Assembly (NCBI GenBank): GCA_949152475.1
Contig: OX424564.1
Span: 35,338,165-35,402,164 of the forward strand
Direction: 5' to 3'
DNA: 64,000 bases
Source of the DNA: Terebella lapidaria
Taxonomy: Eukaryota; Annelida; Polychaeta; Terebellida; Terebellidae
This document shows, piece after piece, positions 10,573 to 63,564 of this stretch. The notes beneath the pieces were generated by a model that saw only the letters and a program-made list of their open reading frames with translations, searched no databases and was not told the origin of the DNA. The translations under genes and the position numbers were made by a program. The stretch's first letter is position 1; each line of letters opens with the position of its first letter.

Positions 10573-10934
10573 TTGTGTTATAGTTGTATGCATGTCGGCA
10601 CAAATGATCTGGGCAAACCAGTAGACCTCATTTTGGACAGGAAGCTAATGCAGGACCGGAGGGCCCCTGCAAAGACCAAGGCTGTGAGTTTCTCTCCACA
10701 TGGCGGAGGTTTGTCAATGACAAGACCCCTAAGAAAGAGATGTTTGCACGTGATGGCCTGCACCCAAACTACAACGGGACAACCAAACTGAAGAAAGTTT
10801 TTGATGGCACAACCGCTCGTCTGCGAGGACACACCAGGTCCCTGATTCAAGGCCACACCAGCAGGAAGCGACGAAACGCAACTGTGTGGCTGACCACACC
10901 AGAAAAATCACTATTCGCAAGTAAAGGTATGTAG
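10573..10934 (+). pseudogene. SGNH-hydrolase-like fragment
   Basis: Two short blocks typical of SGNH/GDSL esterase folds lie close together: MHVGTNDLGKP (block III, His-Val-Gly-Thr-Asn-Asp) near 10,590 and FARDGLHPNYNGTTKL (block V, Asp-x-x-His catalytic pair) near 10,743. They sit in different frames with no clear intron between them. The nucleophile block with GDS-type serine is not seen upstream. The second block ends at a good splice donor (AAAG then GTATGT near 10,928). Esterase domains of this type occur in the first ORF of CR1-like LINEs and in other multi-copy invertebrate genes. I cannot decide between a LINE remnant and part of the neighbouring multi-copy gene. Confidence 0.5.
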
Positions 10935-11407
10935 GGTACTAGTATTTCCTAAATATTTTCATGAATAGACCCATGTGATTCAAAATGGCAAAATTGAAAG
11001 GAACATATTCGCGTGAGATATCAGATGATATGGATGATATATTGCATGACACAACCTTCCAGCGCGTTGATTCATGTTTGCACGTGATGGCCTGCACCCA
11101 AACTACAACGGGACAACCGAACTGAAGAAAGTTTTTGATGGCACAACCGCTCGTCTGCGAGGACACACCAGGTCCCTGATTCAAGGCCACACCAGCAGGA
11201 AGCGACGAAACGCAACTGTGTGGCTGACCACACCAGAAAAATCACTATTCGCAAGTAAAGGTATGTAGGGTACTAGTATTTCCTAAATATTTTCATAAAT
11301 AGACCCATGTGATTCAAAATGGCAAAATTGAAAGGAACATATTCGCGTGAGATATCAGATGATATGGATGATATATTGCATGACACAACCTTCCAGCGCG
11401 TTGATTC
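10740..11407 (+). repeat. Exact-boundary tandem duplication, 334-bp unit
   Basis: Bases 10,740-11,073 are repeated at 11,074-11,407 with very few differences. The unit starts inside the SGNH block V coding stretch (TGTTTGCACGTGATGGCC) and ends at GCGCGTTGATTCA. It therefore copies a coding 3' end, its splice donor (AAAG/GTATGT) and the start of the following intron-like sequence. The near identity indicates a recent event. Confidence 0.9.
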
Positions 11408-11579
11408 ATTGACTCGTGGTGTTGGCTATGATTTATCATATCCCTAACAGCCATCGGTTTCTGATGCATTACAGTGCCAGCAGCAAATATAAATATCGAA
11501 GCATTTTACAAGAAACTGAACAAACATTACATATAATTCATGAAAATGAATCAAAGAAGTGTGCAATGGTAGCAGCGTG

Positions 11580-14275: not shown

Positions 14276-14284
14276 TGACAGTGA

Positions 14285-14785
14285 TCGTTTCTGTGGAGGT
14301 TATGAACTGTGGTTGCAGGTGAGCATGCGCTTGACTTGGCCACATGAAATGCCCGAAGCAGTAGACTTGAAACCTATGTTCTCCACAAGTTTGTAGTACA
14401 TTCAGAAGTCAGCGAGCATCCCGAGGAAAATATTTGCCCATACTCAACAGTAGGAAGTCTCAGAAAAAATACCGAGAAAATAATTGACAGTGTCCGTTGC
14501 TGTGGAGAGTATGAACTGTGGTTGCAGGTGAGCATGTGCTTGACTTGGCCACATGGAATGCCCGAAGCAGAAGGCTTGAAAACTGTGTTATCCACAAGTT
14601 CGTAGTGCATTCATATGTCGGCGAGCATCCCGAGGAAAACATTTGCCCATCATTTTCAATAGTAGGAAGTCTCAGAAAAAATATCGAGAAAATCAGTGAA
14701 AGTGCCCGTCTCTGTGGAGGTTATGAACTGTGGTTGCAGGTGAGCATGTGCTCGACTTGGACACATGAAATGCCTGAGCATTAGG
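14285..14785 (+). repeat. About 210-bp tandem repeat, nearly three copies, each with a splice donor
   Basis: The block TTATGAACTGTGGTTGCAGG followed by TGAGCATG begins copies with donors at 14,319, 14,528 and 14,740 (spacing 209 and 212). Each copy also carries GCGAGCATCCCGAGGAAAA and a TCAGAAAAAATA segment. The repeated junction TTGCAG/GTGAGC has the form of an exon end plus donor. The array lies just 3' of the C-terminal domain of the coiled-coil/Tudor-like gene, whose last exons it probably duplicates. Confidence 0.8.
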
Positions 14786-14799
14786 CTTAGACACTACTA

Positions 14800-26252: not shown

Positions 26253-26720
26253 AAATTTTGGAGAGGGGGTTCAGCGAAAAAGTGAGGATGGTAAAGTGTG
26301 ACACAGTGGTCCCACTAGCACATCACAGTGGGACCGCCTTCTGCCAGACAGGGAGCATTTATTAATTATCGATGTCCCGCAAAGTGTGCTAGTGGGACCA
26401 GCCTCACAAAGTGAGCCGTGTAAAATGTGTTCTATCTAGTGGGATCAGCCTCACAAAGTGAGCCTTGTCATAGTGGGACCGGCCTCACACAGTGAGTCAT
26501 GTCCTAGTGGGACCGGCCTCACAAACTGGACATTGTTCTAGTGGGACCGGCCTCACAGAGTGAGTCTTGTCCTAGTGGGACCGGCCTCACAAAGTGAGCC
26601 TTGTCCTGGTGGGACCGATCTCACAAAGTGAGTCATGTTCTAGTGGGACCGGCATCACAAAGTGAGCTGTGTACAGTGGGACCGGCCTCACCAAGTGAGC
26701 CTCGTCCTAGTGGGAGTAAT
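26253..26720 (+). repeat. Left 34-bp tandem array (about 12 units) with flanking inverted block
   Basis: Units of GTGGGACCGGCCTCACAAAG + TGAGCCTTGTCCTA repeat from about 26,320 to 26,715, with degenerate first units. Just outside, 26,253-26,298 contains GGTTCAGCGAAAAAGTGAGG, which has an inverted partner at 31,587-31,634. The unit is the reverse complement of the unit in the 30,085-31,232 array. Each unit holds the 13-bp palindrome CTCACAAAGTGAG. Confidence 0.95.
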
Positions 26721-29072
26721 TGGAGTCCTAGTGAGGGTATTGATTCAATATGATACACCTCAATTATTGCAATGAATCAAATAGTACAAAACAAATTGTT
26801 AATGTGTTTATTGCATTCTACTGCCAGGTAGCATTTTTACGCACATAGTCATACACGTAAATGTATGTATGTATGTACGTGAATTGGACAAGGAAAATAT
26901 ATGTACGGAATTTTACACTGACAAGTATTAAGTTATTGAAAACGTACTGGTTACAAAGCAAAGTTCAATATTACCTCAAGCTTATGCATCAGTAACTCCA
27001 GACGAAAACATTTGTGAAGACACAAGTGACATGACTTGCTATGATAATTAATTTGAAATGTTAACATAAAGAGGGATGCTTTAACATTCCATGCATCAGT
27101 ATAATTCGAACATAAGCAACTACTTCTGTCAGTTCAGCAAAAGAACAAGGTCACCGTGGTAAACTAAAGATACCAAGTTGGTTTAACAATAGTAAAATAT
27201 CCCTTCAGTGATGTTCATGTTTGCTGCACAATTATGGATAGGAAGAAATTACAATACGTGCACGTCAAAAGAGAATATCATGGCAGTTTCAGGTAAGCCA
27301 GTTCACAAATATACTCGTACGCTGTATGGATATAATCAAGTGTGAATTTATTGATATTGATGTAATTTCTTGGTGATTTTTGTTTTGTGATTCAATAGCA
27401 TATTATTTTAATATTTCTACCATGGAACGTGCACATATACTGTCATATTTCAGGATGTTTGAGCAAAAATAGTAGACATGATTGATTAAAATCATGATAG
27501 CATGAATCTTGTACAATTATGATGAATTATAAGAGTGTATAAAGTAGGTAACATATCATATCTGGGTTTTTCTATTCTATAAACATCACAAGAATGTAGG
27601 TGACATAAATGGATACAAAGTGAGAAATACTTCATGACACACTGAACATTGTATATATGCAATAGCAATTATATTCTGACAAATATGAATGCGAATATTG
27701 TTTCAATCTCACACACACACTGCCTATCGGTATACGAGTAAGGTAACAGAGATATTTTCATTATAGCTTATTTACCATGAAACAATAAAAGAAAGTTGCT
27801 GCACATTATGCAGCGTGTTTAACTAGACATAAAAGCCTATAGGCTTTGTGGCATCCCCCAATTTTTCTTTTCTTTTCTAATGGTGAAACTTGACTGTTAT
27901 TATAATACATATACCAGGATTATTGAACACAGGTGGGAATGAGAGTTCAAATTATAGCAGTTGTTCACCAGACAAATGCCCATCAGATATTGGCCATCAG
28001 AGTATACTTATTCAGTGTGTTCCTGGCTTCCATAATATTGTTTAGGTACTATTGCCAAATTTAAAACAATATGGATACAAAGTGAGAGCAAACAAAATGA
28101 CAAAAACATAAGGCCTCCCCGATTTTCAATCGGGATGCCTAATAGTAATGAAATATCATCATTAAACTGCAAACATACACTCATTTCTGAACAATAAAAT
28201 ATCAGAGTTTGCACATATCAATTTCCAAAGGCAGTTACTTGTGTAAGTTCACAATATACACTAACTGTCTCATGTTACACATGCCACTGTTACTGTTACA
28301 CAAACAGCTATCTAAAATATTCCCAACTGTGTGTATACATATCACACGTATTCAGACTTAAACCGTGAAATTCATGCTTACTTATTCAGTGATAGTAATC
28401 TGTTTTGCACAAACCATCAGATCTACACTTATACACATTTCAGAATGATTTGTTTTCGAATTACAACGAAATAGAAACATCTCGAACCTCAAACTGGAGG
28501 TTTCATATTGTTGTAATAAGGTTACCCATTAACCTATTGATATTCATGAAATCTTTCCGTAAAACAAAAGGTTTCGTGTATGAGTATCGTCAACATTCGT
28601 CTTCGATATCGCGGCGATGGCTGTAAAATTGCTACCCCTAGAACACTCACAAGCCATATGTGTTTTGGATGGACTGATTTCATCACAAAATGAGTCCCCA
28701 AATGGTCACTTTGGTTGTTATGGCATACAACATCGATAGGTGTCATTATCTTACCATATTATGTGTTTGTGTAAATAATTATCAAAATTGGATTAGAAAT
28801 GTGACCTGTATAGTGCTCACAAGAAAGTGTTTTCAGTGAACGCGGCGGCAGCGCGACGACTGCAAATCAGTAGTATATGCCAAACTTTGTTCGGGGGATA
28901 CAACTACAATTTACATATGAAACAGATTCCCCCATGGACGTTTTTCTGATGGTGTGTATCGTCCATGAAATGGTGCACAACACTGCATCTGGGAAAATAG
29001 GAATGTGTACAATAAGCAAAGGTATGCTTTGCAAAAATATGCAAGTTTAGCAAATATGTAAGCTGACCGGTT
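26721..29072. other. Interior between the inverted arrays; mostly no gene
   Basis: This is AT-rich sequence with a short ATGT microsatellite at 26,862-26,880 and a CA run at 27,710-27,720. Open frames are short and unsupported. The only coding signal between the arrays is the minus-strand protease-like gene end at 29,169-29,853. Confidence 0.5.
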
Positions 29073-29078
29073 TTTATT
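29073..29078 (-). terminator. Poly(A) signal for the Ulp1-like gene end
   Basis: AATAAA on the minus strand about 90 bases 3' of the modelled stop codon at 29,169. The spacing fits a normal animal 3' end. Confidence 0.5.
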
Positions 29079-29168
29079 CAATTATTGTTAAATGATTTCT
29101 CTACAGACTTGAACAATTAAACTTCAGTGAAGATTACAATTCTCGGTAATCATACCAGCATTGATTCT

Positions 29169-29853
29169 TCATCTCCAAGGCCACGCCACATACAAAACTT
29201 GTCTCGGACATCTGGCAAAATGTAGTATGAATAAATCATCTGCCTCAGTTCACAGTGGCATAATTATACAAAATTTTCTTATCGAAAAATGCATAACATA
29301 ATAAGGAAGAAAAATTGATGAAAGTATCGAAGATAATTCACACCAAACTTGGGGTATTATCATATCACTCTTGCAATATTTGTATAATAACTTAGTATAT
29401 ATTTCATGACATGACAATATCTGTCTGTTATCAATAACAAACACAGAGACATGCAGTGAAGCAGGAGACAAAAATTCAAATTCAACATACCGGTTTTTTT
29501 CATACAATGTCCTAGCAATCACACGTCTTGTGTAGTTAGGGGATGGCATTTCCGGGCAATTTGTTGATAATCTGTCATACAGGAACTAAAAAGTAACGAA
29601 ATAACAAGAAAATATAAAACATTTGCTGACACATGCTATTAGTTTGTTTTCTGTATACCATTTAGCATGTATGGTACAATGGGAAAATATTTGCAAGAAA
29701 TATATCATTCTCACTTAGTATACCTTGAGAGCAAACACTCCACAGTTGTGGCAATCTGTCTGTCTCCTGGTGTGTTTCGGGGGGACCACCTGGAAGTCTC
29801 CCGTGTCAATGTTCAGCAACATCGGGGGCAGGCGACATGCCGACATCGCTCGG
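29169..29853 (-). CDS. Ulp1/SENP-type cysteine protease, 3' exons of a gene (5' part not found)
   Basis: Three exon candidates join in phase: 29,853-29,724, 29,585-29,491 and 29,211-29,169, with acceptors TTGCCAG, TTTTTAG and TTGCCAG and donors GTATAC and GTATGT. The first carries RRQTDCHNCGVFALK. The glutamine six residues before a Cys-Gly-Val-Phe is the oxyanion-hole Gln and catalytic Cys pattern of the C48 (Ulp1/SENP) family. These enzymes cleave SUMO or related conjugates; relatives also occur in several DNA transposon families. The second exon gives FLYDRLSTNCPEM and the last a short basic end. The catalytic His and Asp should lie upstream, but I find no such exon before the 34-bp array that begins at 30,085, so the gene is either cut off or has a distant 5' part. 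Host gene versus element gene is undecided. Confidence 0.5.
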
Positions 29854-30084
29854 CTGGCAAGGGCTGATGGAAGTGAAGGTACAGGTAGTGGTCGCGCGGG
29901 TGGGCTGTATGATCACTGGAATTGGGCCACTAATTCGCTCACTCATTCATAGTGACCGCCAATGCTGTTTCCATCAATGCTAGAAGAGAATGTTGGAAAT
30001 GCCATGACTTTTTACTGCTATATATTGGCATGACATATATAGCCTAAACTGTATGTTTTTAATCTTGTTTTGTAGTCATTTCGA

Positions 30085-31232
30085 ATTCCACTAGCTGGCC
30101 CCACTAGCACAAGCTCACTTTGTAAGGCATGTCCGACAAAGCTAAGCTCTTTTTGTGAGGCTAGTCCCACTAGAACAAGGCTCACCTTGTGAGGCTGGTC
30201 CCACTAGAACAAGGCTCACTTTGTGAGGCCGGTCCCACTAGAACAAGGCTCACTTTGTGAGGCTGGTCCCACTAGAACAAGGCTCACTTTGTGAGGCCGG
30301 TCCCACTAGAACAAGGCTCACTTTGTGAGGCTGGTATCCCTAGAACAAGGCTCACTTTGTGAGACCGGTCCCACTAGGACAAGGCTCACTTTGTGAGGCT
30401 GGTCCCACTAGAACAGACTCACTTTGTGAGGCCGGTCCCACTAGGACAAGGCTCACTTTGTGAGGCTGGTCCCACTAGGACAAGCTCATATTGTGAGACT
30501 GGTCCCACTAGAACAAGGCTCACTTTTTGAGGCTAGTCCCACTAGAACAAGGCTCACTTTGTGAGGCTGGTCCCACTAGCACAAGGCTCACTTTGTGAGG
30601 CTGTTCCCACTAGCACAAGGCTCAATTTGTGAGGCTGGTCCCATTAGAACAAGGCTCACTTTGTGAGGCTGGTCCCACTAGATCAAGGCTCACTTTGTGA
30701 GGGTGGTCCCCCTAGGACAAGGCTCATTTTGTGAGGCCGGTCCCACTAGATCAAGGCTCACTTTGTGAGGCTGGTATCCCTAGAACAAGGCTCACTTTGT
30801 GAGACCGGTCCAACTAGGACAAGGCTCACTTTGTGAGGCTGGTCCCACTAGAACAAGGCTCACTTTGTGAGGCCGGTCCCACTAGGACAAGGCTCACTTT
30901 GTGAGGCTGGTCCCACTAGGACAAGCTCATATTGTGAGACTGGTCCCACTAGAACAAGGCTCACTTTTTGAGGCTAGTCCCACTAGAACAAGGCTCACTT
31001 TGTGAGGCTGGTCCCACTAGCACAAGGCTCACTTTGTGAGGCTGTTCCCACTAGCACAAGGCTCAATTTGTGAGGCTGGTCCTATTAGAACAAGGCTCAC
31101 TTGTGAGGCTGGTCTCACTAGATCAAGGCTCACTTTGTGAGGCTGGTCCCCCTAGGACAAGGCTCATTTTGTGAGGCCGTTCCCACTAGGACAAGCTCAT
31201 ATTGTGAGACTGGTCCCACTAGCAAAAGCTCA
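30085..31232 (+). repeat. Right 34-bp tandem array (about 33 units), inverted relative to 26.3 kb
   Basis: Units of GGTCCCACTAGAACAAGGCT + CACTTTGTGAGGCT repeat with a 34-bp period. Variants (ACAAGCTCATATTGTGAG, GGTATCCCTAG, TTCCCACTAGC) recur in the same order about 440 bases apart, showing a 13-unit higher-order duplication (about 30,328-30,767 versus 30,768-31,200). Each unit holds CTCACTTTGTGAG. Open frames across the array are by-products of the period. Confidence 0.95.
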
Positions 31233-31586
31233 TATACTAGAGATTATAGACTTGTATGTCAGGTGCAGAAAAATATTCTGATAGAGTCTATAAGATTCCT
31301 TCAATATCGCCCAATTTGTCCACAAAAATTTACATTTGTTCTCAAATTCATAGCCCTTAGTTGTGGAAAATGTTTTCTATTGCTCATACATGACACCTCA
31401 ATCTTTTTGTATGTAATTACCTTTTGTTTCTGCCAATTTTTGTGTTAGATTCACGGATCACTCTGTCCATTTTCTCCAGTCTGACGCCCGCCGTTTCAAT
31501 AATTCTAATTAGAAAATGAATGATCCCTCAGCTATCGCGCGCGCACAGAAAGCGGTCCGGTTGGCCATGTTATACTGAGACACGCA

Positions 31587-31681
31587 TCCCACTGTACCAT
31601 CCTTACTTCTTCGCTGAACCTCCTTTTGGAATTTTCTCGGAGAAGGAATTCATTGGAAAAGTTTGAGAAATCTAGAATCAG
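31587..31681 (+). other. Inverted partner block and possible 5' UTR exon
   Basis: 31,587-31,634 reads, on the minus strand, AAGTAAGGATGGTACAGTGG and matches 26,253-26,298 in inverted orientation. On the plus strand the segment ends with a strong donor, AATCAG/GTGAGT, at 31,681, some 220 bases before the first coding exon of the 112-residue membrane protein. It could be that gene's untranslated first exon. This is an inference. Confidence 0.35.
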
Positions 31682-36186: not shown

Positions 36187-39100
36187 GGTTACCGGACCTT
36201 TGGTCCGCTAACCTATTGGCATGGCGTTGCGTCCGGCGTCCGGCGTCGGCGTCGTCCACATTTTTATCATTTTTGTTTACGGACCAATCTTTCTGAAATT
36301 TTGCACAAAAATGCACAAAAATAATTCAAGAAGGAGGTATTTTTGATTTTCGCATTTTTTTCAAAATGGCGGCCGTTTTCGTCGAAAATCGGCCAATTTT
36401 GGACTTTGGCGGCCATTTTCTCAAAATGTGTTCAGTAACTTTTTTTCTTTTTGATACATAACACTCCTCATATGTACTCCTATGATGTCTATAAATTTCG
36501 TTTCGATTGAATCACTCGAAGTGGGCCATTTTGGCCCAAACGCGGCCCAAATGGGACTTTCCCATGTTAAATTCTCCTATGCTTTATAATGGGACACATT
36601 AAGCCTTATATCTCATTTAATATTGAGATTAGAGACTAGGAATCAATTGTGGACATATAGGAAATGGTATATGCTGAATATTCTCGTGACCTTGAATTTG
36701 ACCTCTGACCTCGGTTTCAAGGTCAGAGCGGCCGTTTTTTGTCGAAAAATGGCCAATTTTGGACTTTGACGGTCGTTTTCTCAAAATCTGTTCAGTAACT
36801 TTTTTTCTTATTGATGCATAACACTCCTCATATGTACCCCTGTGACATGTATAAATTTCGTTGCGCTTGAATCGCTCGAAGTGGGCCATTTTGGGCCCAA
36901 ACTCGGCCCAAATGGGACTTTCCCATGTTAAATTCTCCTATGCTTTATAATGGGACACATTAAAGCCTAATATCTTACTTAATATTGAGATTAGAGACTA
37001 GGAATCAATTCTGGACATATAGGAAATGATATATGCTGAATATTCTCGTGACCTTGAATTTGACCTCTGACCTCAGTTTCACGGTCAGAGAACAAAATGG
37101 CTAATATCTCGCTTATTATCGACTTAACAGCTTAGGAATCAATTGTGGACGTATAGGAAATGATATATGCAGATTATTGTCATGACCTTGAATTTGACCT
37201 TTGACCTCATTTTCAAGGTCACAGGGCAAAATGGCTAATATCTCACTTATTATCGACTTTACAGCTTAGGAATCAATTATGAACATATAGGAAATGATAT
37301 ATGCAGATTATTGTCATGACCTTGAATTTGACCTTTCACCTCATTTTCAAGGTCACAGGACAAAATGATTAATATCTCACTTATTATCGATTTTACAGCT
37401 TAGGGATCATTTGTGGGCATGTAGGAAATGATATATGCTGAATATTCTTGTCACTTTGAATTTGACCTCTGACCTCATTTTCAAGGTCAAGAACACAAAA
37501 TGGCTAATATCTCACTTATGGTCGACTTTATAGCTTAGGAATCAGTTGTGGGCATATAGGAAATGATAAACGCCTAATATTCTGATGACCTTGAATTTGA
37601 CCTTTGACCTCATTTTTTAAAATCTTTTACTTCTTGCTGAAGATTTGGAAACTATTGAAATATAACCTCAACATATATGTATAACTCAATGAACTAAACT
37701 GTATTAACTGTACATATTTTGCATATTACTGAATATATGTTCTCTTTCCAGTTCTGATTGCGTTATACCTGACATTGCACATTCTTTCACATACAATCCT
37801 TACCATTCGAAGTTAAGCTGAGGCGAAGTGTTTGGGGTTCACTTCTTAATACGTCCCCCGAATGGTTTTGATTGCTATATGTCTATGTGTGTGTAGGTGT
37901 CTTTATGTTTCATTTAAGAAAACTTGTATTTCCCCTATTTAACTTCGTTAATTTCGATATTAATATGAGAGAAAGCCGCGAGCCTGTGTATCTGTGAAAG
38001 ATGCACACACATAATCCCTTTAGCAGGTGGCACGCATCCACGCGACCGCGACAAACCGCAGATTGCTTTATGACCCCATGGCGACAAATTTAACGAATTT
38101 AAATGCCCTCAAAAGCATGCCTCAGGAGCATGAGCAGACAGTTTGGTGATCACTGATCAAGGTTATAAAAGACAGTTAACCGGTGTTTGACGGTTAACCG
38201 GTTAATCGTTTGGAGATTTAACAGCCGGTTATTCGCGGTTATTAAAAAAATGCTAGCCGTCGGCGGTTAACCCATTAATCATGCAGGTCCTAGAAATTGG
38301 CACTTTCAAATGGAAAGTCATATATGGCGACTTGTGTGGTGACCTTGAATTTGACCTTGGATGACCTTGAAAGGTCAAAACAGCCATTTTTTGGTCGAAA
38401 AATGTCCAAATTAGCACCTTGTCTATCTTTTCTCGAAAACTGTCTGATCAGATTTGAGATTTTTGTTTCAAAAGATTCTAGTTATGTACCTCTGTGATGT
38501 GTATAAGTTTGGTTGCCCTTGAATCGCCGGTCTGCGTATGGCTGCCATTTTGAATTTTCGACGGGTCGACGAAAAAAACATTTTTCGGCCCAAATCGCAT
38601 TACTATCCATTTAGGGCCATTTCTAGACAAAAAAATTTTTTCACCCTGTGAAAAAAATTTTGAACTTAAAAAATTTTCGGCACTTTTTTCCTTCATAATG
38701 GGAGCTGTGCGGATTGTACTCATAGAACGCTTGAAGATAGAGCTTAGAAATTGGCACTTTCAAATGGGAAGTCATATATGGCGACTTGTGTGGTGACCTT
38801 GAATTTGACCTTTGTTGACCTTGAAAGGTCGAAACAGCCATTTTGGGGTAGAAAATGCACAGATTTGCCTCTACAGATTAAATGCTTGTAGATAGAGCTT
38901 TAAAAGTTTGCATTATGAGCATATAGGAAGTCATATATGGAACAACTGATGATGACCTTGACCTCAGATGATTTTGAGTGCTAAATGTCTGATGTGAAAT
39001 ATGTAAATTAGCCAAGGCTTAAACACTTGCACATACAGGTTAGGATTGTGTATAAGCTAACAAGAAGTCATGTATTTATAGCACATCTCTTGGAGACCTT

Positions 39101-41059: not shown

Positions 41060-44000
41060 TCAGTCGTCCTTCTTGACCACCTCCGGGAGGTCTTTGAGGT
41101 CGTCTTCCTCCTCGTCCGCCGGAGGCACTATCTCCATCAGCAACTGGAAAAACTTAGTCACTTGCTCTGTGGAGGGGGAAATGTGGCGATACTATCAAAA
41201 CTCCGAAATAGGATTTAAATACAATCCTCGCTAAATTGAATATTCTATATTTTTACAAAGTAAATATATCCAGAAGTTGTAATATTTGCATATTTGACAA
41301 AAACATGAATATTCAGAATGTTCTTTCTGTGCTTTGCGGTGATTGTATCGAAAGTTTCAGAGCATTCGGAAGAAACCAGGAACCATGTTTCTAAATACGA
41401 CTTTTCATCAAATCAGCCAACATTGACATCACAAAGGAACTGAGTTCGCTGGTGTACTCACTCATGCAGGGTGCCCTGACTTTACACAGGACGAAGGGGA
41501 AGTAGAAGATGAATCCCGCTAACATGATGACCGTGGCGTAGAGGAATTCAATCTGTGGCGCCAGCACCAGAGGCACCACTACCAGCACCACCGCGAACAC
41601 CAGCACCATGTACGCGAAAATTATCGGCGCCTGCCAACAGAGCACATAAAACGTGTGGGGATCTAATGATATCAGCATGTCAGGCAATTGTTGTCTCTAA
41701 TGTGAAGTTACTTGATGGGTATTGGGTAGTCATGGGTTTACTGAGAATTGCATTTTAATTTTATTTACTTTGAGAGTGGAATTTCGTATCAGTCGCCGTT
41801 TAAGAATATACAATAGAGTCAAGAAGCAACTATATGCCAGTATATAATGAATGTGTACTGTAATGGTTGGGTCATAACATCCGGGGATGACATCAGCGCG
41901 ATCAGAATAAAATAATATATAAATTTGGGGGTTTGCCATCAATTTGACATTGTTGTACTGCATTCAGGCTACTAATTTTGAATTTGTTAACTATAAACTG
42001 AATGCTTCAGACAGGTTATGATTATCCGCGCAAACGCTCCAGCAGCTGGTCGTATATCATAGTGCTCTGGTTATTCTTATTCAAAAGTGTCTCCAAATCC
42101 GGCATTCTAGGTTTATCGATGTCATTTTGTAGCTTTTTATATCAGGAAAAAATATGGACTTTTGAAACAAAATACCCAAACTTTGGAACAAAGTTATGAC
42201 CGTTGCCCATTATGACCGCCATTTTCGGTAAACCCAAAAAGATGTGATTCTGTGCTGATGTCAACACTACCAACTAAGCAGCAATGTCGAGTAAAACAAC
42301 AATAACAGCAAAATCCCATATGGTTGTTTTCATGGCTCCGAAAGTTGACATTGTTTCACGATGACCACACCCTGGACCCTTACGACGTACCGTGTATGGG
42401 CGGTGCGTGCTCTTGTAGGGTTATTTGTATCTCATGACTATAATGGTCACCATGGCGACGGCTAGGACGTACAGTATATGGGCGGTGCATACTCTTGTAG
42501 GGTTCCTTGTATCTCATGACTATCATGGTCACCATGGTTACGTCTAGGACGTACCGTGTATGGGCGGTGCATGCTCTTGTAGGGTTCCTTGTATCTCATG
42601 ACTATCATGGTCACCATGGTTACGACTAGGAAGTACCGTGTATGGGCGGTGCATGCTATTGTAGGGTTCCTTGTATCTCATGACTATCATGGTCACCATG
42701 GTTACGACTAGGAAGTACCGTGTATGGGCGGTGCATGCTCTTGTAGGGTTCCTTGTATCTCATGACTATCATGGTTACCATGGTTACGACTAGGACGTAC
42801 CGTGTATGGGCGGTGCATGCTCTTGTAGGGTTCCTTGTATCTCATGACTATCATGGTCACCATGGTGAGGGCGTAAAACATCCAGATAGCGAAGCTGAGA
42901 AAGTCGATCAGCTGACTGACTGAACCCAACAGTGTATAGATGATCGTGAAAAACGACTGCAAGACAAATCAGGAAGATCATGGATTTCATGGACACTGTC
43001 AGAGGCATGCACTGACTATCGGTTCAGTCTAAAATGTAATTAAACCATTTTATTAAGAACAACAATGCATCAATACTACCAACTTCACGTTAGGTATATG
43101 CTCTACTTAATATGTTCATGATATGCAAATATGATGCTGGTGTAGCCACCGTGTAGGTTTCAACATACCGCCAGTACCAAAGCCGGCATCGGTGTGACAT
43201 TCTTTATGTGGATGTAGGAGAGGAATTTCATCATATGCCCTCCCCTCGCGGCGGTGTAAAACAACCTTAAGAAGACGAGTTTTACAATTGACAATTTTAT
43301 CGTATTGCGGCAATTAACCAAGCTGCAGAATAAAGCATGTAATGGCTGGTTTACAAGATCAAACTACTTCAAACTTTCTACTTCAAAATCCTAAAAGTGA
43401 GTTTGATGTAGTTTGATGGTGGGTGTTTTACACGATCAAACTCGTCACGTCAAACTACTTCAAACTAACTGTTACTATTTCTGTTACTGTTACTTTCAAA
43501 CTATTTCAAACTCCAGTTTACACGGTCAAACTTCTCACTTCGAATTCTTTCAAACTCCTTCAAACTTCATCAATATTTTCATTAGGCAATTTCGAATGCC
43601 CGTTTGTTGAAAGTTGCATTAGAATTGATTCAAAGGGTTGTGTTAGATAGCTCAATTGGTTCCAAAGGGAAAATCATGTTTTTCCATCATTGGATATGGA
43701 CACTAGCTTGAATAGTTTGACTGAGTTTGATCAAACTTTGTGAAGTAGTTTGAAGTCTCGGTTTACACGATCAAACTTGGCGTTAAAACTCCAAAGTTTG
43801 AAGTTGTTTGGAGTAGAAGTATGAAGTAGTTTGATCGTGTAAACCGTACCTAATACTGGTTTACCGTCCAATCGTGAACGTCGTTCCATTGGACGCACCA
43901 AACGTTGACATGGCAACAAACAATGGTATGAGGCCCGGAATACCCGGGATGACTCTCTGGGCCCAGGTCTGGAAGCAAACAGTGAATATTATGAAAGGTA

Positions 44001-47000: not shown

Positions 47001-50000
47001 AGTGTCCATAACGCATTCATACCAAACATTGTGAAGATCCCTCCAATACCCCAGAGAAGGAGGCTGAGTCCCACGCTCCCTGCGTTCTCGGCCACGCCCT
47101 TCGGAGAGATAAATATACCAGATCCTGAAAAGAAAATACAGAACAAGGGGATGACATTCACAGTACAGAATGGACATGCGAGAGTCTTATTAAGGTAGTC
47201 CGCTCCAAACAGCGAGGTAAGGAGGGGTCAAAGAATTTTTCTCAAAATGAATAACTGTATCACATAATCTAGAGCTTCAAAACGACATATTTTATCAAGT
47301 AACTGATCAACATCCTAAAACTGAGAAGAAAATAGGGGGTGACCGTTCGCATGGAACACATGATGCAAATATGGGAATTTTCCCATATATGGACAAAAAT
47401 GTGCAAAAATGCCGAAATTTTAGGTATATGTATGTGATTTTGATCAAATATGTCGAAGAAACCAGTACCGTGACCCCCTATTTTCAGTATTAGGATGCTG
47501 ATCAGTTATCTATAAAATATGTCATTTTGATATTCAAGAAATAACTTTTGAATTTTGATCCTTCGTTACCGCACTATTTGGAGCGGACTACTTTACTGTT
47601 TTTAATGTTTTTCTTCATTTTTAGTTGGGTTACACCCATTATAATTCCATCCACACATATTGCCATCTAAGGCCATGACTTTCATAACATGTTATTGTGT
47701 AAGCCCTTTTGCAAACACAGATAGTTACGTACTATGTCAAATTAAATTCCATTATATTCTCCATTATGTTATGTCAGTGTTATAGACATCAACAATCATG
47801 GGTGTGACGTGGATGTCGCCTCGAACAAAACTACACCAACGTACCGATGATCGTGCCCACCACCAGCCCAATTGCACCCAGGAGTCCGACTTTCTTCTCC
47901 AACACCATGCCCCCGTCATCCTTCTTGGTCGTGGCGGTGGTGCGGACACTTCGCATAGACACCCCATCCAATAGTGATATGCCGTCTGTTGTATCAGTAA
48001 CAAACAAACAGTAATTTATGCACGCTTATTATCACCATCTGTAAGAGTAATAATATTTTGCATAGCGTCGGGATACAGCAACATACATGAACTGCCTGAC
48101 TGAATAATTTTAATTTTAACATAGGGAAGGCAAATCATTGGCAAATCGTGTGAATATATTTCAGTAGACTAGTCTAACATCTAACGTTTACCACATTTTT
48201 TTGCTTTCGTGTGAAATGGCCAGAAAAGTATTGCCGATAGAAATTTGAAAATGAATCGCTGTACAAAAATTAGGCCAAGGGCCGAAGATAGGTTACCGGA
48301 CAATGTTTAATATTTTAGATGTTAGCCAGGTCACTGGTTGAATTCAAGGTCAAGAGAATATTCAGCATATATAACATTAAGCATATATCATGTCCACAGT
48401 TGATTGCTAAGCTGTAAAAATTCAATAATCAGCGAGATATTAGCAATTTTGTGCTGTGGCCTTGAAAATGAAGGGGCAAAGGTCAAATTCAAGGTCATCA
48501 AAATATTCAGTGTATATCATTTTCTATATCATGTCCACAATTGATATGAGCCAGTTTGTCATTGGACCTTGAAAATGAGGTCAAAGGTCAAATTCAAGGT
48601 CCAAGAATATTCAGCATATATCATTTCCTACATGTCCACAATTGATTCCTAAGCTGTAAGATCGATAATAAGTGAGATATTAGACATTTTGTCCTGTGAC
48701 CTTGAAAATGAGGTCAAAGGTCAAATTCAAGGTCATGACAATAATCTGCATATATCATTTCCTATATGTTCATAACTGATTCCTAAGCTGTAAAGTCGAT
48801 AACAAGCGAGATATTAGCCATTTTGTCCTATGACCTTGAAAATGGGGTCAAAGGTCAAATTCAAGGTCATCAGAATATTCAGTATATATCATTTCCTATA
48901 TGTCCACAATTGATTGCTAAGCTGTAGAGTCGATAATAAGCGAGATATCAGCCATTTTAAGCTCTGACCTTGAATTGAGGTCAGAGGTCAAATTCAAGGT
49001 CACAAGGATATTCAGCATATATCATTTCCTATATGTCCACAATTGATTCCTAGCCTCTAATCTCAATATTGAGTGAGATATTAGGCATAATGTGTCCCAT
49101 TATAAAGCATAGGAGAATTTAACATGGGAAAGTCCCATTTGGGCCGAGTTTGGGCCAAAATGGCCCACTTCGAGCGATTCAAGCGCAACGAAATTGATAG
49201 ACATCATAGGGGTACATATGAGGAGTGTTATGTATCAAAAAGAAAAAAAGTTACTGAACAGATTTTGAGAAAATGGCCACCAAGGTCCAAAATCAGGCAT
49301 TTTTCGTCGGAAACGGCCGCCATTTTGAAAAAAAATGCGAAAATCAAAAAACTAAAAAATACCTCCTTCCTGAATTATTTTTAAGTATTTTTGTGCAAAA
49401 TTTCAGAAGAATTCGCCCGTAAACAAAAAAGATAAAAATGTGGACGACGACGACGACGACGGACGACGGACGACAGACGACGGACGCAACGCCATGCCAA
49501 TAGGTTATCGGACCATAGGTCCGGTAACCCAAAAATTAGCCGAAAGGCTAAAATAGGTTACCGGACAATACATAATAGCTATTTTGTCCCATGGCCTTGA
49601 AAATATGATCACTAGTCAAAACTGAAGTCAAGAGAGTATTCAGCATATATTAGGTGAACTTGAAAATGAAACCAAAAGTCAAATTAAAGGTATACAGAAC
49701 ATTCGGCATACGTCCACAATTGAATCCCAAGCTGTAAAGTTGGTAATATACAAGATATTAGCCATTTTGTCCTGTGAAAAAATTAGCCATTTTGTCCTTG
49801 AAAATGCGATCAAAGGTCAAATTCAAGGTCACGACAATATGCAGTTTATATCATGTCCCATATGTCCACGATTGATTCCTAATCTGTAAAGTCGATTATA
49901 AGTGAGATATTGGCCAATGCTCTGACCTTGAAAATGAGGTCAGAGGTCAAATTCAAGGTCTTGACAATAATCAGCCAAATTTTTTTAAAAAATCAAAATC

Positions 50001-53000
50001 ATCAGAATATTCGGACTATATCATTTCTTATATATGCACAAATGATTCATAAGCTGTAAAGTCGATAATAAGCGAGATATTAGTCAATTTGTGCTCTGAC
50101 CCTGAAAATGAGTTCGAAGGTCAAAAAAGGTCCCGAGAACATACAGCATATATCATTTCCTATATGCCCACAATTGATTCGTAATTGTAAAGTCGATAAT
50201 AAGCGAGATATTAGCCATATTGTAGTATGACCTAGAAAATAAGGTCGAATTCAAGGTCATCAGAACATTCGGCGTATATCATTTCCTATATGTCCACAAT
50301 TGATTCCTAAGCTGTTAAGTCGAAAAAATGAGCGATATATTAGCCATTTTGTTATCTGACCTTTATATTATGTCAGAGGTCAAATTCAAGGTCACGAGAA
50401 TATTCAGCATCTATCATTTCCTATATGTCCACAATTGATTCCTAAACTCTAATCTCAATATTAAAGGAGGACTTCCTATCAATGTGTATTGGCTTCGACC
50501 AATGATTTTACGGTTAAAACTTCCATATAGCAAATATATCTCAATGCATTTGAATGGAGAAGACTCTAGCTTCGTCCACATATGAAATATGTATATATTT
50601 GTTCAGTACAAACAAATCGTACGGAGGATATAACATCAAAAACACCGAAAATCTGCAAGTTTTTTTCACTCGGCAGGGCATGGCTGACAGAAACGTCATA
50701 CATGACGGAAATTTCTGTGACGTCATTGTTTTGATAGATGTCTCGACAGGCGGCTCATTTGACTGGAATCAAAGATGCTGGAAGTGCTCCGTTGCCCGAG
50801 GCATCTTCAAAACAATGACGTCATTGTTTGTTACTCATTAATTCTCCCCAGTTGGAGGGCGTGGCCGCTAGTTTAGTTTCTTTCGATTTTACATTCGATA
50901 GTAGTTTTAAAAATATGACCTCTTCGATTTTGAAGTCACCTGAATGAATACTCCATGTGCGTGAAACTCTTTTGTTTTGATTTTGATAGGAAGTCCTCCT
51001 TTAAGTGCGAAATTAGGCAAAATGTGTCCCATTATAAAGCGTAGGAGAATCTAACATGGGAAAGTCCCATTTGGGCCGAGCTTGGGCCCAAAATGGCCCA
51101 CTTCGAGCTTTGCAAGGGTATCGAAACATTTTCGCATGGGTGTATATGATAAGTGTTATGCATCAATCAGAATAAACAGAATTTGAGAGAACGACTGTTA
51201 AAGTCCTCAATCCGCCTTTTTTTCGCCAAAAATGGCCGGAATTTTGAAAAAAAATCCGAAAATTAAAAAAATACTTCTTTCTTGAATTATTTTTAAGCAT
51301 TTTTTGTGCAAAATTTCCGAAAAATTCGCCCGTGAACAAAAAAGATAAAAAATGTGGACGACGACGCCACATTTTTATCATTTCCTATATGTCCACAATT
51401 GATTCCTAAATTCTAATCTCAATATTAAGTGCGAAATTAGGCAAAATGTGTCCCATTTTAAAGCGTAGGAGAATTCAACATGGGAAAGTCCCATTTGGGC
51501 CGAGTTTGGGCCCAAAATGGCCCATTTCGAGCGTTTCAAGGGTAACGAAACTTTCGCAGGGTTGTATATGATAAGTGTTATGCATCAATAAGAATAAAAC
51601 AATATTTGAACAGAATTTGAACAAAAAAGATAAAAATGTGGACGACGACGCCGACGACGGCGGACGACGACGCGACGCCATGCCAATAGGTTATTGACAA
51701 AAAAGACACAAAATACACTTCATCGTCATTTCTCGAACTGCAACTCTGGCCCACATATCAGCGAAACAATAATAATTCTCATACAATATATTTTCTTTTT
51801 GTTTCAACGTCTTGATCTGTTTATTTACTATTTATCAATATATCATTCCTGTTATCACATTCAGTAATCAGTAAGTACACTGTAGTGTTGTCGCTGGTCC
51901 GATTAGAACAATCACTGAAATTCCCCCGTCTCTCCAAACGTACTGCGCGGTACGGGTTCATTATCTGTAGATATGTACATGTATGCATATTGACATTGGG
52001 ACCTTGGTGAAAGTAAAAATTGAAGTTAACATTTTATTAATCACTTCTTTATAGAGTGTAATTCTAAGGAAAGGCGTTGTACACTTTACAGCAGTCTAGA
52101 ATGACTACACAGCTGCCACAACCCTGCGCTACACTATAGCATCCTATTGAATGACTGGTACCCATTATATCCCGGGTGGACATAAACAATTGGTGGTGCA
52201 CATAACACTAGTAGTATAATGAAGTAACACAATGGTCCAAACTGAGTCTCGAACTCATGACTTTTGCGTTACAATACCACTGTCTTTTTCGATTAACCAT
52301 GCAAAACATTGTCACAGCATTCTGTTTGGAGTGCCATGAATAAATAGAGAACAAAAATAGTAATATCGGAAGATACAAGAAGAACTCATGCAGCTAAATG
52401 AAAAAATACGATTCCCAAATATTAGTCCATCGGGTGAGATTAAAACAAGAACCAAAAGATCAAGATGATGTCCATGTTTTTTTATTGTTGTCATAGTGTC
52501 CTCTGTAATTTCCAGTGACTGATTTTCATCCTTCGTAAGCTATTTTGCACAAAATACGTATGAATATTGGAATATACAAGTGAGTATAAATGAACATTTT
52601 CATAATTTTTTGTTGTTGGTGAAATAACCAATTGATACAGGTGCATCTCATTTTTTTTGTATTTTAAAACTGATGTTTGATGTATTTATAATAAATTCTT
52701 AGTAATTTTGAACATCAATTTGTTGGTACACATTACGAAGCGATCAACCAGATGTCGATCATGCAAAAAAAAAAATTGCGTACAACAAAAATGTGTCCCT
52801 CAGTTGTATGCAGCACCCATGGCAAGTGTATAATTATATCCCATTGAATTCCAACCTACATATATTCAAATATATTTTGGGGGGTATATTCTTCATGAAA
52901 CGTGACATTATGTGCTCAATTTCACTTTTTATTCCGTTTTTTTTTTATTACTTTTTATTCCGTAGAGTGAAACATACATTTAGGAAATTCCCCCTTTGGA

Positions 53001-61408: not shown

Positions 61409-63564
61409 ATGCCAATATGTACGTGTCCATGTCCTTTGCACTCTCAGGACGGGCCTTGCAACTTCGACGTTGATGCTTTCTGGTAAGATTTCAATGAAAG
61501 AAAGACAACGGTAACTCAGGATGTATGAATTTCAGTTCGTTTTTGTGAGAATATAGTTTTATTGCGATGAGAAGAAACAGGGACTCATGCCACTGGCAAA
61601 ACTCGAACCACGAATTGCCTCAAACCAGTAGCCGGGAGCTATCAATACATGTATATATCCAAACAACTGCAGTTTGTGTATACATTGTCTGTCACAAACA
61701 TGTTTTCACAAATGGAAGATCTACATTTAACACAAATATTTGAATTGATATTTATGCTACCTCGTAATTATGCATCATTAAGTTGAATTCCAGGGGGATA
61801 AATGTCGAAGTTGTCGAAGAAAGTTCCAAACATGATCATGGAATTGTGATAATGAATATACTTTGATTTTTCATCCCGTCTGAAAACAGCAGAAGTACAT
61901 GGTACTATTATATCGTAGTGTAAATGGATGTGAAATGGTTAATTTTAATTGAATTTCCGGCTTCTATTTCAAAATTATTCAGCAATCTACTCCAAATTAT
62001 GTGAAATTGATCACAGTATTGTGGGGGAAAATTCCGGGTTCATTGGGAGGGAAATTTTGTTTCAATTTTGAATCAAAAGGCACATTCGGATGTATTGTAT
62101 CCGCGTTATATTATATGCTGATCTCAAGAAATCGCATTCAATTCCAGCAAATGCACGTAATTTCAGTTCGGACTCACAAGTTCCAAGAAAGGGATAAATT
62201 TAATTGGGAGTTAGATGGTCGACTTCTTTACTTTTTAGATAAAGATCAGATAGTGATGCGGTGATTGGTCGACACAAACACTTGCATATACTCTTTTTCT
62301 GTTTATTTACACTTAAGGTAAAACGTGTTAAGTTACATCATGATACCTTCTGACGTCACTGAACTGTGAAGGAAACCGTGTGTAATACATACAGATTAGA
62401 GAAACCCGAGTACAACAGATTTTAGGAAAGTAAACAAAATTCATTCCCATTATCAGACGAAAAAATAAAATGTATTTCCATAATCACAACATATAATTGA
62501 CACTGATAAAATTATGCGTCAACGCTGCGAGCTATATTGGCCTGAGATTACAGATTAATCTGAATATCGAGCTCAGATTAAGGATTCGGTTTCGTTTCTC
62601 CTGGAGTGATTCCAATGACTCTGGAGATGAGCCAATTTTTACTATGATAATGAATTTGAACTGATAATAAAATGTTATTATGTAGATTAATGACGTTCAT
62701 TTTGTTGCCTGCAGGTCCAGCGTTACGGGCGGGTCGCCCCGGCTGGACAACTCTCCCGCACGTCTCGTGTTTATGGGGGACGGCCGGGTGGGCACGACGT
62801 CCCTGATCAAACGCTTCACGCGCGGGCTCTTCGAGACGGACTACCGGCCGGAGGTTGCCAAGGTGATGCGGCACACCAAAACCGTGTACACGTCCCGACT
62901 GGACACCAACGTCACCGTCCAGTTCTGGGACATCGAGGGTTCGGACGTACGGACCTCACTGCTCTGTGCACAGAAAGCCCACGCCGTCGCCGTCGTGTAT
63001 GAGATCACGAACAGGTCGAGTTTCGAGCTAGCGCAGCGGCTATTAGAGGGCGTCAACCCTCGCGCGAGTGTACTTCTAATCGCGCACAAGATCGACCTTA
63101 AGGTCCATCGCAAAGTCTCGTACCACGAAGGACGTCTTCTCGCCAAGATCCACAGAGTTCACTACTTAGAGGCCTCGGCCAAACTGAACGAGAAAGTGGA
63201 CGAGGCTTTCAACATCATGGTCAACTCGGTCCCGGACGAGTACTTGAAATCCGGATCGCGGGACTCCAAGGCGATGAAGGCGGTGCGTCGGTGGAAAGTT
63301 TCCACGGCCCTTTGTGTGGCCTGTCACTCGCGTTTGCCCGGGGGTGGAACCCGTGGCCTGTCCGGGGCTGGAGGCGGCGAGCGGGAGCGAGAGGGGTCGG
63401 AGGAACGGGGAGCGGCCGCCCCGGTGGACGATAGGCACAGACTGGTCCGCTCCAAGCACCGCTCGGCCTCCGAGGACCGGCCGCCCCGAGAACTCTCCCG
63501 GCGCCGAGTGATCTCCGACCCGGAGTTCGAGCGCAGCATGAAGGAGAAAGCCATTTCGATCTGA
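61409..63564 (+). CDS. Divergent Ras/Rab-like small GTPase (2 exons, 307 aa)
   Basis: Exon 1 is 61,409-61,482, ending TTTCTG/GTAAGA. Exon 2 is 62,715-63,564 after TGCCTGCAG. The split codon gives Trp25, and the total is 308 codons with TGA. The G domain spans about residues 42-196. G1 is GDGRVGTTS (46-54), where the near-invariant Lys is Thr52. Switch I lacks the usual Thr-Ile. G3 is WDIEGSD (Asp97, Gly100), without the catalytic Gln. G4 is AHKID (His149 in place of Asn). G5 is EASAK (177-181). The closest resemblance is to Rab/Ras proteins (VVYEITNRSSFE). A cysteine-rich N-terminal extension (MPICTCPCP) could be palmitoylated. The 110-residue C-terminal tail is basic, Gly/Arg/Glu-rich, with no CAAX box. 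Exon 2 is much richer in GC than its surroundings. It probably binds GTP weakly or differs in cycle; which subfamily it belongs to is uncertain. Confidence 0.85.
61483..62714 (+). other. GTPase intron 1
   Basis: AT-rich, with an 87-codon frame (62,001-62,264) that lacks splice sites and motifs. No gene is seen. Confidence 0.6.

Follow-up and report, generated by a model that had tools for sequence, protein, structure and literature searches.

We analysed a 64-kb window (the whole stretch of 64,000 nucleotides, numbered from its first letter) of the genome of the annelid Terebella lapidaria, corresponding to positions 35,338,165 to 35,402,164 on the forward strand of contig OX424564.1. Within this window, two arrays of a 34-bp unit lie on opposite strands as the arms of a 5,368-bp element, located at 26,261-31,628 and described here on the + strand with its left (L) end first. 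We conclude with high confidence that this element is a diverged copy of a mobile, non-autonomous foldback-type DNA transposon. Other copies of the same family were found dispersed in the genome, and one of them could be compared with its empty site at base precision.

Architecture of the copy in the window

Both Tandem Repeats Finder (TRF) and matching of the unit core were used for location of the arrays. By TRF, the 34-bp arrays were called at 26,436-26,715 and 30,094-31,222. With the 26-base core of the unit and up to three mismatches, 33 matches were obtained in the window, and none in 100 shuffled controls. The nine + strand matches fell within 26,390-26,699 and the 24 − strand matches within 30,181-31,188, with no match outside the two arrays in the 64-kb window. 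The opposite orientation of the arrays had been proposed from the letters without database searches (hereafter the sequence-only reading), and was borne out by the core matches; the enclosed space, estimated there at about 3.4 kb, was measured as about 3.38 kb. Taking TRF and the core matches together, the left array (+) extends over 26,390-26,715 with nine recognised units, and the right array (−) over 30,094-31,222 with 32 units when up to six mismatches to the 26-base core were allowed. Within the right array, about 441 bp (13 units) are duplicated at 30,351-31,053, as recognised from identical mismatches that recur at that spacing.

The outer blocks are imperfect inverted copies of each other, one starting at 26,261 (GAGAGGGGGTTCAGCG...) and the other, on the opposite strand, from 31,628 (CAAAAGGAGGTTCAGCG...). 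The sequence-only reading had recognised this relationship, but set the limits of the blocks slightly too wide: 26,253-26,260 and 31,629-31,636 are the two copies of a decayed target-site duplication, AAATTTTG on the left and GAATTTTC on the right, with 6 of 8 positions in agreement. The limits of the whole element were aligned with other copies, and the exact ends were calibrated on copy L009 against its empty site (loci and contigs are referred to by L and C numbers, respectively). Comparison of the ends placed the L end at 26,261-26,389 (+), where the terminal inverted repeat GAGAGGGGGTTCAGCGAAAAAGTGAGGATGGT is followed by an imperfect subterminal palindrome, and the right (R) end at 31,223-31,628 (−), which consists of about 400 bp without array and the terminal inverted repeat CAAAAGGAGGTTCAGCGAAGAAGTAAGGATGGT.

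The interior between the two arrays (26,716-30,093) showed no recognised coding capacity, as examined by its frames and by alignment of copies, and no Rfam match was found in the window. Relative to copies L011, L012 and L016, the window copy contains 320 bp of extra sequence at 27,820-28,139, which is probably a later insertion because it is missing from all three; in turn, 125-133 bp and 75 bp present in these copies are lacking in the window. The identity of its interior with those of other copies was 91.5-93.3% over aligned bases, and 92.9-93.3% with those of nine of them, indicating that the window copy is more diverged than its sisters.

Dispersed paired ends, target duplications and an empty site

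The genome searched comprised 761.6 Mb in 438 contigs. A two-unit query gave 792 matches, and 16 other array loci were fetched from among the best-matching places listed. Well-preserved arrays are over-represented in this set, so that the share of paired arrays given here is not a genome-wide one: 12 of the 16 loci carry a + array, a window-like interior of 2.6-4.9 kb and then a − array. Paired inverted arrays thus exist at other loci, as anticipated for a foldback-like element. Within the stretches fetched, a single array strand was observed only for L019, L022, L023 and L024. L023 sits between two ends 22 kb apart, the copy at C2:58032516-58054419, and the sequence there includes a retroelement with aspartyl protease, reverse transcriptase and RNase H domains.

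Across the family, the L end reads GAGAGGGGGGTTCAGCGAAGAAGTGAGGATGGTA and the R end reads CAAAAGGAGGTTCAGCGAAGAAGTGAGGATGGTA. A search with the 25-base terminal core, allowing three mismatches, gave 45 genome matches and none for the reversed control. Thirty-six of these matches form 18 pairs, including that of the window, all of which face inward; nine are unpaired. No outward-facing pair was detected within 25 kb, indicating that outer blocks and arrays are parts of one element. The foldback element is present at about twenty to thirty genomic places. With a 701-base interior query, 15 places were matched over most of its length, and the part of this query at about 120-648 was found to be 71-82% similar to a wider repeat family.

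Flanking sequences were at hand for 18 copies, and the count of target duplications is based on the 14 in which both ends have the expected form. An 8-bp flanking duplication was perfect (8/8) in nine copies and nearly so (7/8) in three, with 6/8 for the window and 2/8 for L026. When flanks were paired at random (10,000 trials), a mean of 0.14 copies and a maximum of two reached seven or more matches, versus the 12 copies observed. The three copies with 7/8 could also have a 7-bp duplication and one additional C at the terminus. Four copies with a damaged end (L021, L027, C1_90 and C2_58) were excluded from the count; by eye, L027, C1_90 and C2_58 show 7/8 if the end is shifted. The target sites showed a preference for T at positions 6 and 7, counted from the L end, with 11 of 12 at either position (background 0.30); position 2 is A in 8 of 12.

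A locus without the segment was also found. L061 on contig C1 is the empty site of L009, which is located on the small contig C169: over 627 bp of one flank the identity is 99.7%, over 582 bp of the other 99.5%, and the two flank matches overlap by exactly one copy of the 8-bp sequence GAATTGTG. Because L061 matches both flanks of L009, C169 is probably an alternative allele of C1, the insertion being a presence/absence difference between them; a recent segmental duplication is another origin to be considered for this difference. Among the nine empty sites queried, only that of L009 was intact at one place. The queries for L014 and L020 matched many copies of dispersed repeats across the junction, and the other six gave no listed match, from which nothing is concluded since scoring there covered only 40 of 2,799 candidates.

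Several observations weigh against the assignment as a foldback transposon. No clear duplication flanks the window copy or L026 among the 14 copies counted, and none at all is seen at L021, the damaged end of which kept it out of the count. Neither a copy with a transposase nor an autonomous partner was found in searches for P, hAT and KDZ domains, MULE domains not having been searched. Unit arrays lack an inverted partner in the stretches fetched for L019, L022 and L024, the last being a single array of 4.4 kb, and L039 and L040 carry same-strand arrays. The unpaired and same-strand arrays would fit a satellite that was duplicated and inverted without mobility of its own, the alternative that the sequence-only reading had kept beside the foldback element. 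Against such a satellite stand the conserved ends, the target duplications and the inward pairing, and for L009 it is refuted by the empty site. We therefore reject it as highly improbable; the foldback-type transposon is supported by the same fixed ends, duplications and pairing together with the empty site. The unpaired arrays may have arisen from the foldback element by decay or expansion. In L024, the array (L024:5448-9854) has 98 recognised units on one strand, is satellite-like, and may extend past the fetched stretch. L022 has two copies, 1 kb apart, of a piece of array together with the 410 bp of R-arm sequence that follow it.

Variable arms and the AGTGGGA motif

The number of units varied widely among 11 complete copies, from 9 to 60 in the L arm and from 13 to 90 in the R arm. 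The distance from the end to the start of the array was nearly constant, 130-136 bp for the L end and 407-433 bp for the R end. Units on the wrong strand were absent from all 11 copies and the orientation of the interior was constant relative to the ends, giving no sign of arm recombination that flips the interior. Identity of interiors over aligned bases was 97.4-99.7% among nine copies, indicating that the family moved recently, and 94.4-95.3% for L021. The arrays change faster than the interiors. For instance, L016 and L018 are 99.7% identical in the interior, with 47 and 34 units for the former versus 21 and 13 for the latter. Slippage or unequal exchange may let the arrays grow and shrink faster than the remaining sequence mutates.

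Units of both arms were then compared for nine copies, 421 from left arms and 519 from right arms, with the likeness figures biased upward by the choice of units for core similarity. Units from left arms were 93.2% alike and those from right arms 90.0% when compared within an arm, and units from opposite arms of a copy were 90.7% alike; between corresponding arms of different copies the likeness was 93.2% (left) and 89.7% (right). This comparison gave no sign of copy-specific homogenisation of the arms.

In the L arms of the nine copies, the unit reads approximately AGTGGGACCRGCCTCACAAAGTGAGCCnTGTn followed by two variable bases, and is strongly conserved except for a few positions among the units, as chosen by similarity. 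It holds a short palindrome, CTCAC-AAA-GTGAG. The first part of the unit, AGTGGGA, recurs about 35 bp inside both ends in the form of the palindrome AGTGGGA..TCCCA(C/T)T. Each of the 28 genome matches to this pattern was located at an end of the family, and the control gave none; the ends of the window copy have diverged too far to match the intact pattern.

Movement of the element would take place by cut-and-paste, using a transposase encoded elsewhere that would recognise the ends via AGTGGGA. As each 34-bp unit has this motif once, additional binding sites would be lined up along the arms. Because AGTGGGA is common to the palindrome at the ends and to the units, we tentatively read the arrays as multiplied putative transposase-binding sites, such as were shown for Galileo, a foldback element of Drosophila (PMC3688188), although our doubts about this role slightly prevail. 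Two copies weaken it. L028 consists of two ends back to back, 66 bp in total, without arrays but with a perfect 8/8 duplication, so that the ends alone define the mobile unit. L026 carries the family ends, and its arms are opposite-strand arrays of a 20-bp unit without AGTGGGA. From these two copies, the 34-bp-unit arrays may not be needed. A more far-reaching model, which we regard as rather unlikely in its entirety, supposes an undescribed and still-mobile foldback family, of which the arms are a multiplied terminal transposase-recognition motif that could be exchanged for the array of another family, such as the 20-bp unit of L026, with the ends kept constant. The element would then be a modular transposon with satellite arrays as interchangeable cargo.

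The 20-bp unit (approximately TTTTCACCGGGGTGAGAAGG) makes up a second kind of paired inverted arrays, observed at L026:740-2831, L059 and L060. At least 413 genome matches were obtained for this unit, with 40 of 326 candidates scored, many of them as neighbouring − and + arrays. L059 and L060 have in common an end-like sequence around ACGGTGGCTTMGATTCGCCATCACGTTTAAT, and probably represent a further foldback family. In the window, arrays of a 134-bp unit (with GACCTTGAATTTGACCTTTGACCT) lie on opposite strands at 36,967-37,616 and 48,543-50,452, possibly as another paired-array element; a 134-bp array is also present in L035.

Search for a transposase and relation to known elements

The longest stop-to-stop frame per copy was 110-173 codons for the 11 complete copies. 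Three frames from L011 and L012, one of them cut to the first 160 of its 173 residues, gave no Pfam match at E up to 1; the copy at C1:90592005-90601024 (interior match 79%) and most of the 22-kb C2 copy lay outside this coding scan. Around the unpaired ends (5 kb each; L032-L035 and L036-L040), ten of the frames present in L033, L034, L035, L036, L038 and L039 were likewise without Pfam match at E up to 0.01. In viral contigs, the exact end core gave no match. Domain listings contain the best matches only, and a partner could escape from them. The positions of the 45 ends were checked against the matches listed for the contigs that bear them (96 P-type, 106 hAT), and a single P-type match was found within 50 kb, located on contig C7 at 4.3 kb from an unpaired end, on its outer side. 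As such a neighbour has a probability of about 0.05 by chance (rough estimate), it is recorded here and nothing is built on it. For the KDZ transposase (Zisupton group), 14 genome matches were obtained, none near an end among the matches listed.

The 8-bp duplications suggest the hAT or P superfamily, and on this character alone one of the two is most likely. For a foldback element of the hAT superfamily, 8-bp duplications were observed at both the flanks and the empty site, and the genome contains at least 149 matches to the hAT dimerisation domain (PF05699). However, none of the 45 ends has a listed hAT match within 50 kb. The target consensus of hAT elements is nTnnnnAn, which differs from the T at position 7 (11/12) and the A at position 2 (8/12) observed here. 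Membership in hAT is accordingly doubtful.

A Galileo-like foldback element of the P superfamily, with a THAP transposase that binds the repeats, appears slightly more plausible, though still tentative. At least 150 genome matches were found for the P-type RNase H domain (PF21787), including the one about 4 kb from the unpaired C7 end. In the passages cited, Galileo makes duplications of 7 bp and sometimes 8 bp (PMC4168063), and sites for THAP binding are placed in its tandem repeats (PMC3688188). Against this assignment, the C7 match lies outward of the end, and no end is near any other listed match with a similar frame. Four 9-base terminal motifs of the present family were absent from the 12 P-type loci fetched within just 1.5 kb on each side, beyond which the own ends of these loci may lie.

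The least probable of the three superfamilies is a Mutator-type (MULE) foldback like Drosophila FB, Tm1 or, as proposed by its authors, Tetris. The majority of described foldback elements are assigned to Mutator in the section cited (PMC4079207), but the duplications given in the cited excerpts are 9 bp for Tm1 (PMC3169594) and 8-10 bp for Tetris (PMC4079207). A 9-bp duplication was not seen in the present family, which has 8/8 in 9 of 14 copies and exactly 8 bp at the empty site.

The family displays the features of the foldback class: inverted ends made of opposite-strand tandem repeats (11 of 11 copies), precise insertion with duplication, and dispersed shared ends. Drosophila FB has composite inverted ends of variable length. 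The TU elements of sea urchin also belong to the foldback type; their outer domain contains tandem repeats and their duplications are 8 bp long, a likeness by description. Sea urchin is named among the foldback hosts in a passage of the Tetris paper (PMC4079207). Tetris of Drosophila virilis is likewise a non-autonomous foldback element with an outer flanking domain, variable tandem arrays and a non-coding middle, the partner transposase of which was not found and the arrays of which also occur in satellite-like form; it is set apart, by description, by its unit of about 220 bp versus 34 bp, its 8-10-bp duplications and its insect host (PMC4079207). Galileo likewise has ends that are long, repetitive inside and more conserved than the rest, and its duplications, of 7 or 8 bp, may correspond to those seen here (PMC4168063), but it possesses a THAP/P-type transposase, none of which is linked to the present family. 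Tm1 of root-knot nematodes resembles the family, as does FB, in composite inverted ends of variable length, and differs in its 9-bp duplications and, in some elements, a Mutator-type transposase, as stated in the excerpt cited (PMC3169594). The element in the window is thus of a known kind, a foldback transposon; for the family itself no description was found in a literature search by titles and starts of abstracts, with subscription journals and Repbase outside its scope.

The family is of value as a recent and well-preserved foldback family that provides an insertion and its empty site, an ends-only copy, an array-swapped copy, and near-identical copies with about two-fold differences in array length. 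It opens to testing the role of long repetitive ends for transposons and the seeding of satellite arrays by transposons. As long inverted repeats, the copies could also promote rearrangements.

Elsewhere in the window, tandem arrays were detected at 10,740-11,409, 14,276-14,788 and 42,384-42,866, with a 334-bp unit present twice at 99%, a 209-bp unit and an 82-bp unit. When six frames were scanned, only that at 62,686-63,564 (+) matched Pfam, with a Ras-type GTPase domain (PF00071, E 9.1e-27). Outside the window, contig C438 carries COX1 with in-frame TGA, as in animal mitochondria, and by eye ND3, ND2, COX1 and COX2 are consecutive there, an arrangement found in many molluscs. On the small contig C417 (L030/L031), a 703-codon frame with TGA codons holds another COX1-like gene; this contig is perhaps the mitochondrion of a eukaryotic companion of the animal sampled.

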